Shown: in pieces, positions 12,109 to 62,566 of the stretch
Layout of the letters: the number at the start of each line of letters is the position of its first letter
Numbering within the stretch: position 1 is the first letter of the stretch
IMG/VR virus record: IMGVR_UViG_3300042386_001233
Coordinates: 62,001-126,000 of that record
From: a virus
Reading direction: 5' to 3' (one strand)
DNA: 64,000 nucleotides
The notes under the pieces: generated by a model
What the model saw: the letters and a program-made list of their open reading frames with translations, nothing else
Database searches by the model: none
What the model was told of the DNA's origin: nothing
Translations under genes and position numbers: made by a program

Positions 12109-13776
12109 TTAGGTTACGTTTTTCAGGTGTGCGTATGTGATAAAATCTTCATCAAATTTAACATTATTATTCTTAACATTTTCTGCTTGATTATTATTAT
12201 CTATCATAGTATTAATATAGTCAAGAGTATTATTAAAATCAAAAGGAGCCATTGATGTAGCACTAGATTGTACAAATCCATAGTCTGCATTTTTAAGCAG
12301 TTCTAACATTTTGTATGATCCTATGAGTTCTGTTTCTTGGAAATTATTATTGCATATTCCAATAAGTCTATCAAAATGGGTCTGAGGATCAATATTTGAC
12401 TCTTTGATTACTGGTGTCTCATATTTTCCAGTATTCCATTTAGACCTATATCCCTTTGCATCTAATTCGTCAAAATACTTTTCCCATTTTTGAGCAATAT
12501 TATCCCAATTATAGTGCTGATGTGTCAGATCTTGAATTTCATGTCTTAATTTTTCTCTGGTTGGTTTTGGCTTATTGATAAAATCAATTATATAATTAGC
12601 TAAATCATTATTATCTGGATAAACCCGTAAAGCTTTTGTTTCTAGTTCTTTAAATAGAGTTTGTATCTTGATTGGGTAGGCTTTTAATTTTTTAACTATA
12701 TCACACATAGCACTATAATCCACGGTAGCTATCGGCACACCACAAGCCCCAGCCTCCACCTGCGGCATACCAAATCCCTCACAGATTGAGTACTGAACAT
12801 AAAGATCAAATATGTTGTATATGCTACTCAGAGTGTCAGAAGATACACCTTCTGTTACAGATGGAAAGGTCATGCTTTTGCTCATACATTTTACACAAAC
12901 CTTTTGTGGGCCAGTAAATACAGAGCACTGGGTTGTCTTACAGTTTTTACATATATAGGTGAATAGAACCCTATTACTAACTCTTGACTGTCTTAGTAGT
13001 TCAGGAATATCCCAACCCATATCAGGATAGCTAGTATGAAGATATAGATATAGATTCTCTCCCAAAGAACTATTAGAGGCTTCTAATCTATCTAGGACTT
13101 CTCTGAAAGTGGTAAATAATTCTGGTATTAGTTTGCGTTTTTGGTTACGCATAACTGATCCTATTATGATAGAATCAGGAGATAGTCCAAGCTGTTGTTT
13201 AATATCGCTTCTGTTTTTTATCTTAAAGGTATTAATATCCACGCCAGGGGAAGTAGTATCTATATAATTAATCTTGTTAGATGATTGCTCTTTAAGAACT
13301 TCCGCACCCCAATCAGAGTATGTAAAGACTGCATCTGCGTCTAAGAAGGTATCTATCCATTCTTCTTGCTGTGGTGAAGAATCTACTGTTGGCATTAATA
13401 TCCAATGGAAAAATTTTCTAAGAGGAGAGGATCCTTGGTAAGCACTCATCCAATAATCACGAACATCAATAACGATATCTGGTTTAAAGTCCAATAAAAC
13501 CTTTTCAAAACGCCAGCGTCCAAACTGATTGTCTACTCTGGACGAATATTCTTTATGTCTATGGTCTGAATCTTTAACAGCATTGGCGTAGTATTTCCAG
13601 TGAATAGATACATCCCTCGGATCATTAACAAAACCATAAGAAGCGAATTCTGCTATTTCATACTTATTGGTTTTGTGTAAACGAGTTAGTAGTTCTTTTG
13701 CATATATACCGAAACCAGAATGAATAAAACTGGCTTCAGAGCACATCAAGATTTTTAATTTATTGTTTTTTGTCAT
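12109..13776 (-). CDS. GT4-family glycosyltransferase with inserted Cys cluster
   Basis: 555 aa; first gene of glycosylation cluster 1. The N-terminus KILMCSEASFIHSGFGIYAKELL is a typical GT4 acceptor-domain start with the G-F/S-G loop. The donor-domain signature E333-G-F-G-M-P-Q-V-E341 (E-x7-E) followed by AGACGVPIATVDYSAM is intact, so a retaining NDP-sugar transferase is expected. Between the two, residues 276-297 hold a C-x2-C-x4-C-x9-C-x2-C cluster that is unusual in GT4 enzymes and looks like a zinc knuckle. The C-terminal 150 residues are an extension without recognised motifs. A hairpin with T-run just before the ATG may limit read-through from ssb. Confidence 0.85.
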   Translation of the reverse strand: MTKNNKLKILMCSEASFIHSGFGIYAKELLTRLHKTNKYEIAEFASYGFVNDPRDVSIHWKYYANAVKDSDHRHKEYSSRVDNQFGRWRFEKVLLDFKPDIVIDVRDYWMSAYQGSSPLRKFFHWILMPTVDSSPQQEEWIDTFLDADAVFTYSDWGAEVLKEQSSNKINYIDTTSPGVDINTFKIKNRSDIKQQLGLSPDSIIIGSVMRNQKRKLIPELFTTFREVLDRLEASNSSLGENLYLYLHTSYPDMGWDIPELLRQSRVSNRVLFTYICKNCKTTQCSVFTGPQKVCVKCMSKSMTFPSVTEGVSSDTLSSIYNIFDLYVQYSICEGFGMPQVEAGACGVPIATVDYSAMCDIVKKLKAYPIKIQTLFKELETKALRVYPDNNDLANYIIDFINKPKPTREKLRHEIQDLTHQHYNWDNIAQKWEKYFDELDAKGYRSKWNTGKYETPVIKESNIDPQTHFDRLIGICNNNFQETELIGSYKMLELLKNADYGFVQSSATSMAPFDFNNTLDYINTMIDNNNQAENVKNNNVKFDEDFITYAHLKNVT

Positions 13777-13841: not shown

Positions 13842-14213
13842 TTAAAACGCTACAGGTTCGGATGAGTCCTGCTTGCTGTTCTTTGTTAAGCGAGTGATCT
13901 TAGAAAAGTTATTTACTCTAACCTTAAGACTACTGTGCTTAACTCCGTCCTTTTCCCAGGTATCGTTCCTTAAAGATCCCTCGACCATAACCAAATCACC
14001 CTTCTTGAATGACTCAGCAATCATCTCGGCACCACTATCCCAAGCTTCACAATTAATGAAAGAAGTAATCTTGTCTTTGTCGCCACTAGCCTTCGTATAT
14101 TCACGAGATACAGCTACTGTAAAATTAACAACAGATGTTTGCTTGCCACCAGTATTAACAATCCTTAATTCTGGATCACGAGCAAGATTACCTCTAAGCA
14201 ATGTAATATTCAT
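13842..14213 (-). CDS. ssb: Single-stranded DNA-binding protein
   Basis: 123 aa from the ATG at 14213, which has AAGGAG about 10 nt upstream; an upstream in-frame start at 14249 is disfavoured. The start MNITLLRGNLARDPELRIVN is the bacterial SSB OB-fold signature, followed by the F-T-V-A-V-S and F-I-N-C-E-A-W strands and KGDLVMVEGSLRND. The C-terminal tail is short and ends EPVAF, a reduced version of the acidic DDDIPF tip that recruits partners. It coats ssDNA during replication and recombination. It has its own consensus sigma-70 promoter and a downstream terminator, so it can be expressed as a single early gene. Confidence 0.95.
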   Translation of the reverse strand: MNITLLRGNLARDPELRIVNTGGKQTSVVNFTVAVSREYTKASGDKDKITSFINCEAWDSGAEMIAESFKKGDLVMVEGSLRNDTWEKDGVKHSSLKVRVNNFSKITRLTKNSKQDSSEPVAF

Positions 14214-14256
14214 ATATATCAAACTCCTTGTAAAAAAGAAATCACGCAACTACTAC

Positions 14257-14284
14257 ATTATAGCAATGAGCCGTTGATTGTCAA
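14257..14284 (-). promoter_or_regulatory. Consensus sigma-70 promoter of ssb
   Basis: On the minus strand TTGACA (rc of 14279-14284) and TATAAT (rc of 14257-14262) are separated by 16 nt. Both hexamers match consensus exactly. The -35 box overlaps the TGA stop of the upstream polymerase gene, and the -10 box lies about 44 nt before the ssb ATG. Confidence 0.8.
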
Positions 14285-15906
14285 GTTATAGGCTCAAAAC
14301 ACTTTTCTACGATCAGACCGTCCTTGCTTTTGCTTTTATTTCCTGAAAAGACTAAAATATTACCTATAAATAAATAAGATCTATACTGGGAAAACTGTTC
14401 AGGAAAAAAGACCACAGAATCCAAAGTTCCGTATTGATCCTCTATGGTAACAAAAGCCATCTCTAGACCCGGATTCTTACCGCTCTTAGTTTTAGTAACA
14501 TTAACATTCCCAATCTCTCCTACTAAAACTATGTTTTCTTTTAGCAATGATGTCTTGAATGTTTTACAATTACAATTGGCCATAGTAATATCATAAACAT
14601 CAAGTTTAGAGCATGTGATACCAACCCCTAGTAAATCATTTTCTTGATCTGATAACCATTCTATTTTATCAATTAAGGAGTAAGGCGGATGTCCTAATGA
14701 TCTTATATAGTTCGCTATTGTTTCTTTTCGTCCTCTGATTAGTTTAGTTTCAGTATATAAAGCACTGAGAATGTCTATTATAGTACTATCTATCATGGTC
14801 TTTGAGTAAATATTAAATACCGTTTGCTCTTTTTTGGTTAATCCAGAACATATTTCATATTCGAAGAGCATCTCTGATCTATTTTTCTTATAGTAGTCAA
14901 ATGCGCCGCTACTAATCAAAGCCTTGGCTGCAACAGAGTTTATATTCATCAGAATATTGCCGACCATTTGTGGCCACGTTATATCATTAACATTCGTGTT
15001 CTTTGTTAGTTCTAATATTTTCTTGTATACAGACTGTCCTACCCCCTTTATGTCTGTTAAGCCAAAGTATATCTTTTGATTTTTCAATATGAAAAGCTCA
15101 TTTAAATTTCTAAAGTCAGGAATATGGACTTCTATATCCATCTCCATAGCATTTCTAACCAACTCTTTTATTTCCTGTTGAGGATCTATTTTGTCCTTAG
15201 CGAACCTGAGATATGATGCAAAAAAGATCTTGGGGAAATGTGCTTTAGCATACGCTGATAAATAAGCATTCATTGCATAGCTTATGGAATGACTAGCATT
15301 AAATAAGTATCTTTGTGATTTTTCAATCCATTCGAATATTTGTTCTGCTTCTGGTTCTGATAGTTTCCCAGTCTGCTTAGATCCTTCTATAAACTTCTTA
15401 CGGACTTTTGCCATTTTATCTGCTTGCTTTTTACCAATGGCTTTTCTTAGATCGTCTGCTTCTTGTAAATTGAAACCCGCTAGCTCTTTAGCTATAGACA
15501 TAGCCTGTTCTTGGTAAATCATTTCAGAATAGGTATGTTTTAAGATTGGCTCTAGTGCTGGATGGAAATAGTCAATAGACTCTAAGCCATTCTTTTTATC
15601 TATATAATGATTGCTTACGCTTTTACCATCTCTATGTGCCTCAAGACAACCCGGCCTAAGAATACTGATCAAGCCAGATAGCTGCTCAATATTTTGAGGC
15701 TTTAATTTCCGGGCCATGGTTTGTCCTAATCTGGACTCTAGCTGAAAACATCCTTTAGTATTGCCTTCGGATATCAGTTCCCATGTTTTATAGCATTCTA
15801 AACTAATGTTAGATAGTTTGGGAGAAAATTTTATTTTAGGAAATTCTCCACCCTTATCTAATACTTCAAATTTACATCCACAATCAAATACAAAAGAGTC
15901 TGACAT
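14281..15906 (-). CDS. DNA polymerase III alpha subunit, C-terminal half (fingers, helix-hairpin-helix, OB domain)
   Basis: 541 aa. From about residue 50 it follows bacterial DnaE immediately after the palm: TKGCFQLES, then ISILRPGCLE, YQEQAM, LRKAIGKK and FNASHSISYA (fingers). Later come the helix-hairpin-helix segment LTDIKGVGQSVYKKI and a C-terminal OB-fold (VLVGEIGNVNVTKTKSGK...). The N-terminal 50 residues, starting MSDSFVFDCGCKFEV, replace the missing palm and have no DnaE counterpart. The catalytic Asp residues lie in the separate gene at 16782-18650, so both chains must associate. GGAT precedes the ATG by 6 nt. Confidence 0.9.
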   Translation of the reverse strand: MSDSFVFDCGCKFEVLDKGGEFPKIKFSPKLSNISLECYKTWELISEGNTKGCFQLESRLGQTMARKLKPQNIEQLSGLISILRPGCLEAHRDGKSVSNHYIDKKNGLESIDYFHPALEPILKHTYSEMIYQEQAMSIAKELAGFNLQEADDLRKAIGKKQADKMAKVRKKFIEGSKQTGKLSEPEAEQIFEWIEKSQRYLFNASHSISYAMNAYLSAYAKAHFPKIFFASYLRFAKDKIDPQQEIKELVRNAMEMDIEVHIPDFRNLNELFILKNQKIYFGLTDIKGVGQSVYKKILELTKNTNVNDITWPQMVGNILMNINSVAAKALISSGAFDYYKKNRSEMLFEYEICSGLTKKEQTVFNIYSKTMIDSTIIDILSALYTETKLIRGRKETIANYIRSLGHPPYSLIDKIEWLSDQENDLLGVGITCSKLDVYDITMANCNCKTFKTSLLKENIVLVGEIGNVNVTKTKSGKNPGLEMAFVTIEDQYGTLDSVVFFPEQFSQYRSYLFIGNILVFSGNKSKSKDGLIVEKCFEPIT

Positions 15907-15908
15907 AT

Positions 15909-16607
15909 TTATCCAACGGTAAATGCTGATTTAAATTTTACTTTATTCGAAATATTACGATGTAGTCTAAGAAAACGAATTAAAATATCTGCCGTATCCT
16001 TAACGTCTTTAAGAGCATCGTGAGCGCCCTCTTTACTAATTCCTAGATAGTCTCTAAGGTTATCTAGTGTATAGTTTTTAAGTTCATTATTTCCTTCAAA
16101 CCAATAAAAAACCAAATTCATCAAATCTATAACATCTCTTGGATAAAAAAGATCTGAACGACCCTCTTTATTAAGATTGTCATATTTTTTACTAAGCCTC
16201 TCCATTATTCGTAAATCAAATCTGTTGATATTATACCCAGCAGCAATCGGAGCAGTAAAACATGATTTTTTACCGCTTGATCGTGAATGATACATATTCA
16301 GATATGATACAAATAATTGCCATCCATTTTCTTGCTTTTGATAGGACTTCCAGTCAGCTAAAATAGCATCTTTAGTACTAGACCTAACTTTCGCATGAAA
16401 GTCTAGAACATCAGAATCTCCATAAGCATAATCAATATTATTTTCTAAAGCTTCTGGCTTTATCGTAATATTAAATTCAGAATCTGGTATAACTTCTAGT
16501 CGATATGGATCGATCATTATAGCAGCAATCTGAACAGGACTACATGTGTCGGGATTAATCCCGTCGGTTTCAAGATCAAATACGCAAATTTTTTGTAAAT
16601 TAGCCAT
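15909..16607 (-). CDS. DEDDh 3'-5' exonuclease (DnaQ-like proofreading subunit)
   Basis: 232 aa. Exo I is CVFDLETDGINPDTC (D-x-E at about residues 10-12), Exo II is AAGYNINRFDLRIM, and Exo III is EGAHDALKDVKDTADI near residues 193-208 (H-x4-D), so the DEDDh active site looks complete. It would proofread for the split polymerase, between whose halves it is encoded. Its ATG overlaps the stop of the 59-aa gene, and its stop is 2 nt from the start of the C-terminal polymerase gene, so the four genes look co-translated. Confidence 0.9.
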   Translation of the reverse strand: MANLQKICVFDLETDGINPDTCSPVQIAAIMIDPYRLEVIPDSEFNITIKPEALENNIDYAYGDSDVLDFHAKVRSSTKDAILADWKSYQKQENGWQLFVSYLNMYHSRSSGKKSCFTAPIAAGYNINRFDLRIMERLSKKYDNLNKEGRSDLFYPRDVIDLMNLVFYWFEGNNELKNYTLDNLRDYLGISKEGAHDALKDVKDTADILIRFLRLHRNISNKVKFKSAFTVG

Positions 16608-16779
16608 TTACCACTACTACTGTTGAACCTGGGAAAAATGCCTTCTGGTTATTATCAGCTGCTACTTGACAGTTGATAGATCTGCAACAACTAACTCTGA
16701 CTTCTTCTGTCTTAACGTATTCAACATTGTTAACAGTGAATTTATCACCGAGCACTAATTCTTCAAATTTCTTTTCCAT
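16600..16779 (-). CDS. Small conserved-looking 59-aa protein between polymerase genes
   Basis: 59 aa. ATG at 16779 with GGAG 8 nt upstream; the stop at 16600-16602 overlaps the start of the exonuclease gene. The protein has a beta-rich N-terminus (LVLGDKFTVNNVEYVKTEEV), a VSCCRSINCQV motif with three Cys, and an FFPGSTVVVV end. The ribosome-binding site, the protein-like composition and coupling on both sides support translation. The function is unknown; by location it might assist the polymerase. Confidence 0.7.
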   Translation of the reverse strand: MEKKFEELVLGDKFTVNNVEYVKTEEVRVSCCRSINCQVAADNNQKAFFPGSTVVVVNG

Positions 16780-16781
16780 GA

Positions 16782-18650
16782 TTATTCTCCATATTTTAAT
16801 ATGTCTGATATTGTCATAATTTTATCCAACATAGCAACGCCCAGAATATCAAATTTAATTAAACCAAGACTTTCTAAATCCTGCATTTCCATACCGGCTA
16901 TGGCCTGTTTATTCTTTGTGTCATATACCATTGGACATACAGAACTAAGTTTTTTGCTACTAATAACTACACCAGCAGCATGTTTAGATTGATTTGACTT
17001 GGTTCCTTCCAGCCTGATTGCTTGCTCAAATCTTTTGGCCAGTGGTCCCTCCAGAACGTTGTCATTAGATATATAGCACCATTCCTTGAGTTTGTCAACA
17101 TTATTTTCTAAAGCCCAACGTATGATAGAAGCTTCTCCAGTATCTTCTTTCATTTCTTGCAATTCGTCTGCAATTTTTGCTTCGTCAGGAATACTTTTAG
17201 TAATTCTGTTCATTTCATCAAAGGATATATTACCATAAACTCTTAAAACTTCCTTTAAAGCTCCTCTACCTTTCATAGTATTAAAAGTTATCATTTGAGA
17301 TACTTTTTCTATTCCATATTTATCTTTAATATAGTCTATGACATATTGTCTTTTGGTAATTGGTACGTCCACATCAATATCTGGCATGGATATATGATCT
17401 GCAGTATTTCTTCCTTCGTTATAAAATCTCTCAAACAACAAATCATACTTAATAGGATTAATATCTGTAATACCGACAAGATATGATACCAAACATCCAG
17501 CAGCACTACCTCTACCCGGTCCTGGTAGCCATCCATTGGACTTAACATAATTGACAATATCTTGAATAATTAAAAAATAACTAGATAATCCAGCACCTTG
17601 TAGAACTTTTAATTCAAACTTGATACGATTAACATAGGTTTCGTGTTCAGACTCTGGAACTTTATCAGCAATCTTTTCTCTCCAGCCATCTCGACAAAGT
17701 TGTCTAAGATATTCGTCTGGATCAGCATTATTGGGACATTCAAACGTTGGAAGGGATGGCTTGCTCAATATATTGTATTCTTCACATAGCGAGTCTACAT
17801 ACAAAGTGTTTTCGATCTCTTCTTCTGTATGAATATCACTCATCTCTTCTGGAGATAGTATGTGATAATTATCTGACTGAAAAAAACAACTCAATGGAAC
17901 ATCTTGATTAGCTAATAGCTTTTTATTCACATCTACTAAAGTAGTCTTCAGATTGTTACATAGTAGAATTCTTTGGTCTATGGCGTCTTCTTTTGTGCAA
18001 TAATGAGCATCTGGTGTGCATATTACTTTTGTTTTTGTTTTACTGCCCAAAGAACGAACAAAATCTGTTATGTCTCTTTGTGCAGGATTGAGTGCTTGGT
18101 CCATAAGCTGTGCTTCTAAAAAGAAGTTCTCTTGACCAAATATTTCTTTCATTTTAGCTACAAAATCTATACCTATCTTATCCATTGTTCCAGACTGGTT
18201 TTCTAATAGATCTGGCAAGAGAGATCCCAAATGACCACAGAACCCTATAATATTCCCATCCAAAAAATTAGCTAGTCTGTCCATACTAATTCTTGGCTTA
18301 TGATAAAAATTTTCTTCTTTATTGGTTTCGGAAGCTATTGAGATTAAATTACGCCACCCCTTTAAATTCTTCGCCAATACTAAAAAATGACTAAGCTTGC
18401 TATTTTCTTTAGTTTTGATGTTAGAATCTTCATGGGAAATATAAAGTTCACAACCTAGTATTGGCTTTATATTTTGAGCTTTAAGAGCTTGGAAAAATTG
18501 AACACATCCAGAAATAGAACCATGATCAGTTAATGCACACGATTTAATCCCAGTGTTAGCACATCTTTGAGCAATCTGATGAGGCTTGCTGATACCGTCC
18601 AATAGGCTGTAGTGAGAGTGTGTATGCAATGCGGCATAAGTTTTAGTCAT
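16782..18650 (-). CDS. DNA polymerase III alpha subunit, N-terminal half (PHP and palm)
   Basis: 622 aa. The PHP domain starts at residue 8 (LHTHSHYSLLDG) and keeps the metal-ligand pattern: H9-x-H11, D42-H43, E68, H140, D214-x-H216. The palm has GPGRGSAAG at about 377-385, the catalytic pair D424-I-D426 in MPDIDVDVP, and the third Asp, D601, in LIKFDILGVAML. The protein then ends at residue 622, whereas an ordinary DnaE continues for 500 or more residues into fingers; that part is the separate gene at 14281-15906. All three polymerase aspartates are present. ATGA overlap with the upstream nuclease gene. Confidence 0.93.
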   Translation of the reverse strand: MTKTYAALHTHSHYSLLDGISKPHQIAQRCANTGIKSCALTDHGSISGCVQFFQALKAQNIKPILGCELYISHEDSNIKTKENSKLSHFLVLAKNLKGWRNLISIASETNKEENFYHKPRISMDRLANFLDGNIIGFCGHLGSLLPDLLENQSGTMDKIGIDFVAKMKEIFGQENFFLEAQLMDQALNPAQRDITDFVRSLGSKTKTKVICTPDAHYCTKEDAIDQRILLCNNLKTTLVDVNKKLLANQDVPLSCFFQSDNYHILSPEEMSDIHTEEEIENTLYVDSLCEEYNILSKPSLPTFECPNNADPDEYLRQLCRDGWREKIADKVPESEHETYVNRIKFELKVLQGAGLSSYFLIIQDIVNYVKSNGWLPGPGRGSAAGCLVSYLVGITDINPIKYDLLFERFYNEGRNTADHISMPDIDVDVPITKRQYVIDYIKDKYGIEKVSQMITFNTMKGRGALKEVLRVYGNISFDEMNRITKSIPDEAKIADELQEMKEDTGEASIIRWALENNVDKLKEWCYISNDNVLEGPLAKRFEQAIRLEGTKSNQSKHAAGVVISSKKLSSVCPMVYDTKNKQAIAGMEMQDLESLGLIKFDILGVAMLDKIMTISDILKYGE

Positions 18651-61895: not shown

Positions 61896-62566
61896 TATTT
61901 TTTAAGTGAGTCTATATTGGGATATTTTTTAGTGCCAAGAATACCATCGGCAAAGCCGTAATATACTGCTTCTTCAGCCGTTAATATCCAATCGCATTTA
62001 TTAGCAAGTTGTGAGACTATGTGTTTTTTTGCCATCATTTTTTTCCAATTTTTCTCTTTAGCTATCATACTATTCATACACCTGTCAGTAAAAATATCAA
62101 CCATCTTATCACACTCGTTTTCGTTCCATCTAATGCCAGCCGCAGCAGCTTTGCTGTGTTCCCCATCCATACTAAATGACCCATAATGAATCATAACATG
62201 TGTATTTGGCATCAATATTCTAAGGTCGGCAGCTTGTAATAAAACACTACTAGAAGATTCTGCTTTAGCATAAGCGAGGATGATAACTTTAGCTTTTGAT
62301 GCCCTGACAGCATCATACATACCTAGGCAGTCTTGCCAGTCTCCTCCTGGTAAATGCATATGAACTAAAATTGGTTCTAGAGATAATAGGTTTAAGTACC
62401 TGAGATTTTTTTCAAGTACTATAGCAGACCTATAGTCAACACCACCTTCTTCACTATCTCCTAAATATGAATGTAGATATATTTCTCTGTTTTTTGTATC
62501 TATATTATATGAGTGTATTGATTGTAATTCGCTTTCAAGTTCAGTAAATGATTTGGCTGTTGACAT
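61895..62566 (-). CDS. ClpP-like serine protease
   Basis: 223 aa. VHMHLPGGDWQDCLGMYDAV near residues 68-87 is the P-G-G strand and helix of ClpP/SppA folds. IILAYAKAESSSSVLLQAADLRIL holds the nucleophile Ser (about 103-106), TAHVMIHYG-type NTHVMIHYGSF carries the catalytic His, and the third residue (Asp/Asn) is expected in the later CDKMVDIFTD region. As in other phages it could be a capsid-maturation protease or processing enzyme. Its context of structural genes supports a late role. Confidence 0.75.
   Translation of the reverse strand: MSTAKSFTELESELQSIHSYNIDTKNREIYLHSYLGDSEEGGVDYRSAIVLEKNLRYLNLLSLEPILVHMHLPGGDWQDCLGMYDAVRASKAKVIILAYAKAESSSSVLLQAADLRILMPNTHVMIHYGSFSMDGEHSKAAAAGIRWNENECDKMVDIFTDRCMNSMIAKEKNWKKMMAKKHIVSQLANKCDWILTAEEAVYYGFADGILGTKKYPNIDSLKK

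Follow-up and report, generated by a model that had tools for sequence, protein, structure and literature searches.

How a replicative DNA polymerase is put together when its palm and its fingers are encoded in separate genes is the question raised by a locus of the jumbo-phage record IMGVR_UViG_3300042386_001233 (IMG/VR, 243,821 bp, possibly incomplete). We analyzed a stretch of 64,000 nucleotides (nt), hereafter the window, which spans positions 62,001 to 126,000 of this record. Within it, the alpha subunit of a DnaE-type DNA polymerase III (Pol III) is divided between an N-terminal gene (N-half) and a C-terminal gene (C-half). Together with two genes lying in the gap, i.e. those for a 59-amino acid (aa) protein (p59) and a DEDDh 3'-5' exonuclease, they form one block of four minus-strand genes (Table 1). 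The division of the DnaE replicase into two genes is old and is fixed in a large clade of uncultured jumbo phages. We consider it probable that the halves make up a permanently two-chain replicase through non-covalent assembly, with the exonuclease as a partner.

Between them, the two halves cover a complete DnaE. The N-half matched the Pfam families PHP (6e-35) and DNA_pol3_alpha (5e-75), while the C-half matched DNA_pol3_finger (9e-44) and HHH_6 (8e-10), with a weak, sub-threshold match to an OB domain. On the NCBI model TIGR00594 (1022 positions), the N-half accounts for positions 2-572 and the C-half for 581-1022, giving nearly gapless joint coverage. The order PHP, DNA_pol3_alpha, DNA_pol3_finger, helix-hairpin-helix (HhH) is thus kept across both genes, which identifies the polymerase as C-family, DnaE type. 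These matches and the coordinates agree with a preliminary description of the locus, which had read positions 14281-18650 as a Pol III alpha split between palm and fingers, with PHP and three catalytic aspartates (D424, D426, and D601) in the first half and fingers, HhH, and OB in the second.

The breakpoint could be placed more precisely. In an E. coli numbering anchored on what we take to be D401, the three aspartates align to D401, D403, and D555, and the junction aligns to 576/577-588. This is past the palm and ahead of the fingers, given the domain limits reportedly defined for the E. coli alpha subunit by Lamers et al. 2006. The N-half had been said to end just after D601; the break is indeed past the palm, and the gene terminates 21 residues beyond this aspartate. 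Less of the C-half is new than the 50 aa first ascribed to it, as homology resumes at about residue 31, leaving a new N-terminus of about 30 aa.

Residues of the active site are distributed over both chains and are strictly conserved. D424, D426, D601, and K599 are invariant in the N-halves (146/146), and the fingers residues R154, K155, K159, K160, N203, S205, and H206 (E. coli R709, R710, K714, K715, N757, S759, and H760) are invariant in 91 C-halves. All four genes are under purifying selection, with ratios of nonsynonymous to synonymous substitution rates (dN/dS) of 0.05-0.28 where dS was measurable; elsewhere the nonsynonymous proportion (pN) lies far under a saturated synonymous one (pS). 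The preliminary description had held that two chains must assemble to form the active site. Comparative data support this part of the claim, in that selection on each half is purifying and each chain contributes to that site. An obligate non-covalent two-subunit replicase is the most likely product of the locus; its physical assembly and its polymerase activity we infer from sequence. The PHP ligands checked in the N-half are also largely retained, and H140 (window 18231-18233) is an invariant His in the clade, whereas 8 of the 11 sequences outside it have Cys at this position. The PHP domain may be an active nuclease alongside the DEDDh exonuclease.

Relatives were looked for in IMG/VR. Three scans, the first with the C-half and the other two as follow-up, returned 111 distinct C-halves from many metagenomes. 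In every one of these relatives (111/111), the genes follow the order N-half, (p59), exonuclease, C-half on one strand, and no fused form was found. A second set comprised 121 loci, 118 of them detected by scanning for the CGC hairpin as a DNA pattern and three taken from contigs of metagenome-assembled genomes (MAGs). In every locus of this set that holds both halves (102/102), the break falls at the same position and the exonuclease gene occupies the gap, again without a fused example, even as identity to the window falls to 42% for C-halves and to 47-50% for N-halves. The single continuous alpha polypeptide that is usual for DnaE was therefore not encountered: wherever both halves are present, they are two genes.

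A much deeper relative, L376 (= L380), is 31-35% identical to the window and has the break at the same place. Its neighborhood matches that of the window (dNMP kinase, i.e. deoxynucleoside monophosphate kinase, then nuclease, N-half ... C-half, and glycosyltransferase), whereas its gap (L376:2285-3475) has neither p59 nor exonuclease and holds a 111-aa open reading frame (ORF), RNase HII (210 aa), and an 80-aa Zn-ribbon ORF. L376 groups with the split clade with tree support of 100/100, and the split clade, likewise supported by 100/100, takes in the deep syntenic relative IMG037264. Among cultured phages, relatives found by tblastn reach at most about 34-36% identity. Scans with the C-half of Rossellomorea phage phiT1 and with a basal N-half returned few loci.

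Two further observations concern single members. In L064 (L064:3205-4933), the N-half is broken between residues 421 and 456 with no gene inserted, possibly by a deletion or an assembly error. Three contigs of this phage type (L362, L363, and L364) were binned in MAGs of Alphaproteobacteria, Flavobacteriales, and Chitinophagia; these bins thus point to no single host.

Modeled alone with AlphaFold2 from a 91-sequence alignment, the C-half is predicted to be a confident stand-alone Pol III alpha fold (predicted local distance difference test, pLDDT, 91.3; predicted template modeling score, pTM, 0.83), and a Foldseek search with the model retrieved known structures of Pol III alpha, among them 2hnh (3.7 A over 332 columns). 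Its new N-terminus was modeled as a hairpin with strands at residues 4-6 and 12-17. Two cysteines of this hairpin (C9 and C11) and one just downstream (C38) are invariant in 91 C-halves and absent from 11 outside sequences. Standing in place of the original linker, the conserved cysteine hairpin is plausibly a docking element; a role for zinc in this CxC...C arrangement is our hypothesis. An interchain zinc site completed by C525 or C572 of the N-half was considered and dropped: both residues are invariant in 146 N-halves but missing from that of L376 (read by eye), though the L376 C-half retains a CTC...C pattern.

The preliminary description had also placed a DEDDh exonuclease and a 59-aa gene between the halves, all coupled, and the coordinates and a match of the exonuclease to RNase_T (Pfam, 3.7e-12) confirm both genes. 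In the window, 2 nt separate the N-half from p59, the p59 and exonuclease genes share 8 nt, and a further 2 nt separate the exonuclease from the C-half; the median spacings across relatives are 2, -8, and -4 nt. Such spacings suggest translational coupling of the four-gene block. The DEDDh set (D11, E13, D131, H196, and D201) is present in 99-100% of 158 exonuclease relatives, and gene position and conservation point to the exonuclease as the proofreading subunit of the split polymerase. Its only matches in cultured phages were in Bacteroides phages DAC19 and kin, where no C-family polymerase was found beside it.

p59 was modeled as a small beta-barrel (AlphaFold2, pLDDT 93.3) that weakly resembles the N-terminal domains of EF-P/eIF5A, and also many uncharacterized small phage proteins. 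It is encoded in 107 of the 111 close relatives, but the split loci of the second set that are most distant from the window lack it; by this distribution, p59 is dispensable for the split arrangement. A function as dedicated assembly factor is accordingly less likely, given that deeper split members lack p59 and that its fold is common among unrelated small phage proteins.

From these elements, the following mechanism can be proposed. The PHP-palm-thumb chain would supply the catalytic metal-binding aspartates, and the fingers-HhH-OB chain the residues expected to touch the incoming nucleotide and the DNA. Both chains would be made from one gene block by coupled translation and then pair non-covalently into one active alpha subunit, with the cysteine hairpin of the C-half taking over from the original palm-fingers linker as docking element. 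The exonuclease encoded in the gap would join as proofreading subunit.

Several points weigh against such a two-chain replicase. Assembly of the halves is deduced from sequence. Searches of the 243,821-bp record for PolA, PolB, or another C-family polymerase gave no hit (including no match to PF00136); as the record may be incomplete, the lack of another polymerase falls short of proof. A bacterial-type (DnaN-type) sliding clamp was not found in the record either, and inspection of the C-half by eye gave no obvious clamp motif; a search for a T4-type clamp carries no weight, since its controls gave no match. Finally, the p59/exonuclease cassette is not universal, with p59 absent in deeper members and the exonuclease replaced in L376, so that gene position and conservation are what the proposed exonuclease partnership has to stand on.

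The origin of the split is a separate matter, on which other interruptions in the polymerase genes of relatives bear. These comprise (i) a canonical split intein in the N-half at a PGPGRG/SAAG site (L006, L007, L068, and L088), with another ORF of 264-283 aa between the fragments (endonuclease-like in L006 and L068), by which the polymerase is spread over three genes; (ii) an extra N-half break just before PDIDVD in L024 and L055-type members, with a LAGLIDADG ORF in between and an unrelated N-terminus of about 95 aa on the second piece; and (iii) cis inteins in the C-half that include HNH-like sequence and sit at a FNK/SHA site (L338) or a RPG/CLE site (L282, L361, and L160). No intein motif was found at the PDIDVD break of L055-type members, and an Rfam search of the L055 fracture gave no intron, so that in these members even the palm seems to be divided between two chains. 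In phages Jayan (L239) and 8014-B2 (L240) and a Staphylococcus SPbeta-like phage (L241), which have Gram-positive hosts, dnaE is broken at the PDIDVD codons as in L055, probably by group I introns or at homing sites.

Because other sites of this polymerase have been invaded by inteins and homing endonucleases in relatives, it is plausible that a mobile element of this kind once hit the palm/fingers linker and was later lost, the exonuclease, p59, or RNase HII then filling the gap. This history is compatible with the two-chain replicase. It is in line with the fracturing of the N-half by homing endonucleases and split inteins in present relatives and with the unlike gap contents of the main clade and L376, and T4-type phages offer a precedent for genes split by homing endonucleases (PMC2988022). 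However, no remnant of an element was found at the palm/fingers junction of the window by searches of intein families and Rfam, and plain fission by a new start and a new stop, followed by gene insertion, fits equally; we therefore regard the mobile-element origin as quite possible without favoring it. More tentative, and rather doubtful as a whole, is an extended form of the obligate two-subunit alpha, ancient in the lineage, in which the CxC...C hairpin may be a zinc-dependent docking element replacing the palm-fingers linker, assembly of palm, fingers, and exonuclease may be regulatory, and some subclades may have arrived at a three-gene polymerase through split inteins or homing endonucleases.

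Other explanations dispute that two chains form the working enzyme. The halves might not be an active polymerase, the N-half acting as PHP nuclease or accessory factor and the C-half as DNA-binding factor, with the host replicase copying the phage genome. The retained PHP ligands and the clamp missing from the record would suit this, and activity of the pair is itself a prediction, but invariant palm aspartates and fingers residues in both chains, purifying selection, and the conservation of the locus next to helicase, primase, and single-stranded DNA-binding protein (SSB) genes make it unlikely. Very improbable, in our view, is covalent joining of the halves into one mature chain after transcription or translation, by a cryptic split intein, a trans-splicing intron, or recoding. 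The lineage is heavily invaded, as the split and cis inteins described above attest, but the window halves gave no match to intein families (intein-bearing L006 did match as a control), as the preliminary description had anticipated in finding no intein motifs, and Rfam detected no intron at the locus. In addition, the C-half opens with its own conserved structured hairpin instead of an intein C-terminus, the halves are kept apart by an exonuclease gene that is itself conserved, and the gene overlaps point to independent starts. That the split is an artefact of sequencing, assembly, or a frameshift in one dnaE gene is refuted by its recurrence in 111 distinct sequences of many metagenomes, in which the genes of the gap are intact.

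Around the block, the N-half is preceded by genes for a PD-(D/E)XK nuclease, a dNMP kinase, a Toprim primase, and a DnaB-type helicase. A glycosyltransferase-like gene (window 12109-13776) lies just downstream of the SSB gene and stays near the polymerase even in L376/L380, where its counterpart is 37% identical.

Table 1. Features of the split polymerase locus in the window, and polymerase genes with further interruptions in relatives (locus:positions).
Feature	Position	Strand	Description
N-half, DnaE-type Pol III alpha	16782-18650	-	622 aa; PHP + palm + thumb
Codons of D424 / D426 / D601 (N-half, catalytic)	17379-17381 / 17373-17375 / 16848-16850	-	
p59	16600-16779	-	59 aa; small protein of all-beta fold, a gap passenger specific to the clade
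DEDDh 3'-5' exonuclease	15909-16607	-	232 aa; putative proofreading partner
C-half of Pol III alpha	14281-15906	-	541 aa; fingers + HhH + OB
New N-terminal hairpin of C-half	15811-15906	-	Residues 1-32, with C9-x-C11
SSB	13842-14249		After C-half in gene order
N-halves with split intein	L006:3327-6406, L007:4044-7123, L068:4050-7126, L088:2077-5137		
N-halves broken at PDIDVD	L055:4126-7119, L024:4140-7133		Also L056-L059, L061, L065
C-halves with cis intein	L338:4570-7044, L282:1-2049, L361:1683-3301, L160:6001-8400		

Split DNA polymerases are already known from phage PolB, from cyanobacterial DnaE with its inteins, and from a minimal jumbo-phage Pol III; a full DnaE cut between palm and fingers is a new form. 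Cyanobacterial DnaE (cited in PMC3919608) is also encoded in two genes, with a split intein and a break inside the fingers (before CFN), and its halves are ligated by trans-splicing. The break in the window lies instead at the palm/fingers linker and has no intein; as noted early on, the segment FNASHS at the cyanobacterial site is intact inside the C-half. Fractured genes with split inteins were reportedly described by Dassa et al. in 2009. A PolB with a split intein occurs in jumbo phage MIJ3 (PMC6892783). As in the window, these are polymerase genes in two pieces with another gene in the gap, but their halves are ligated by trans-splicing inteins, which the main break of the window lacks and which its relatives carry at another site.

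Rossellomorea phage phiT1 (PV767480; L238:3986-7268), a cultured phage, has its DnaE divided into gp20/gp18 at that palm/fingers linker as well, both annotated as 'DNA polymerase III subunit alpha'. It is about 32% identical to the window and differs in having a 49-aa gap ORF unrelated to p59, no gap exonuclease, and no CxC hairpin. One tree places the splits of phiT1 and the clade as two changes, and 54% of bootstrap trees in another allow one origin. Microbacterium phage Chivey (L242:2995-6346) shows a split at another domain boundary, with a PHP-only gene followed by one running from the palm to the C-terminus.

In the literature searched, C-family replicases appear as single-chain alpha, as intein-spliced proteins, or as a minimal split form of predicted activity. 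The last of these is found in group 2.2 jumbo phages, where a minimal Pol III alpha is split in distant genes alongside a family B polymerase (Iyer et al. 2021, PMC7824862). Like the window, it is a jumbo-phage Pol III catalytic subunit made as two proteins that should together reconstitute one enzyme. That form lacks other Pol III domains, whereas the window has PHP, palm, thumb, fingers, HhH, and OB all present in adjacent genes, with no second polymerase found. A full DnaE cut at palm/fingers and fixed over deep divergence would allow a direct test of whether catalytic palm and fingers can work as separate subunits, and of what stands in for the covalent hinge. For one essential enzyme, the clade also supplies a natural fracture series (plain split, split intein, and homing-endonuclease break), which could help to understand how gene fission turns permanent.

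By analogy, the best precedent for the proposed mechanism is the split PolB of Aeromonas phage 25, whose chains gp43A/43B co-purify and have polymerase activity (PMC2988022). Like the window enzyme, the PolB of Aeromonas phages 25 and 44RR is a phage replicative polymerase in two chains and has no inteins. It differs in belonging to family B instead of family C, in being confined to some T4-like phages, and in its gap, which is taken up by a homing endonuclease or by untranslated sequence where the window has a replication exonuclease.

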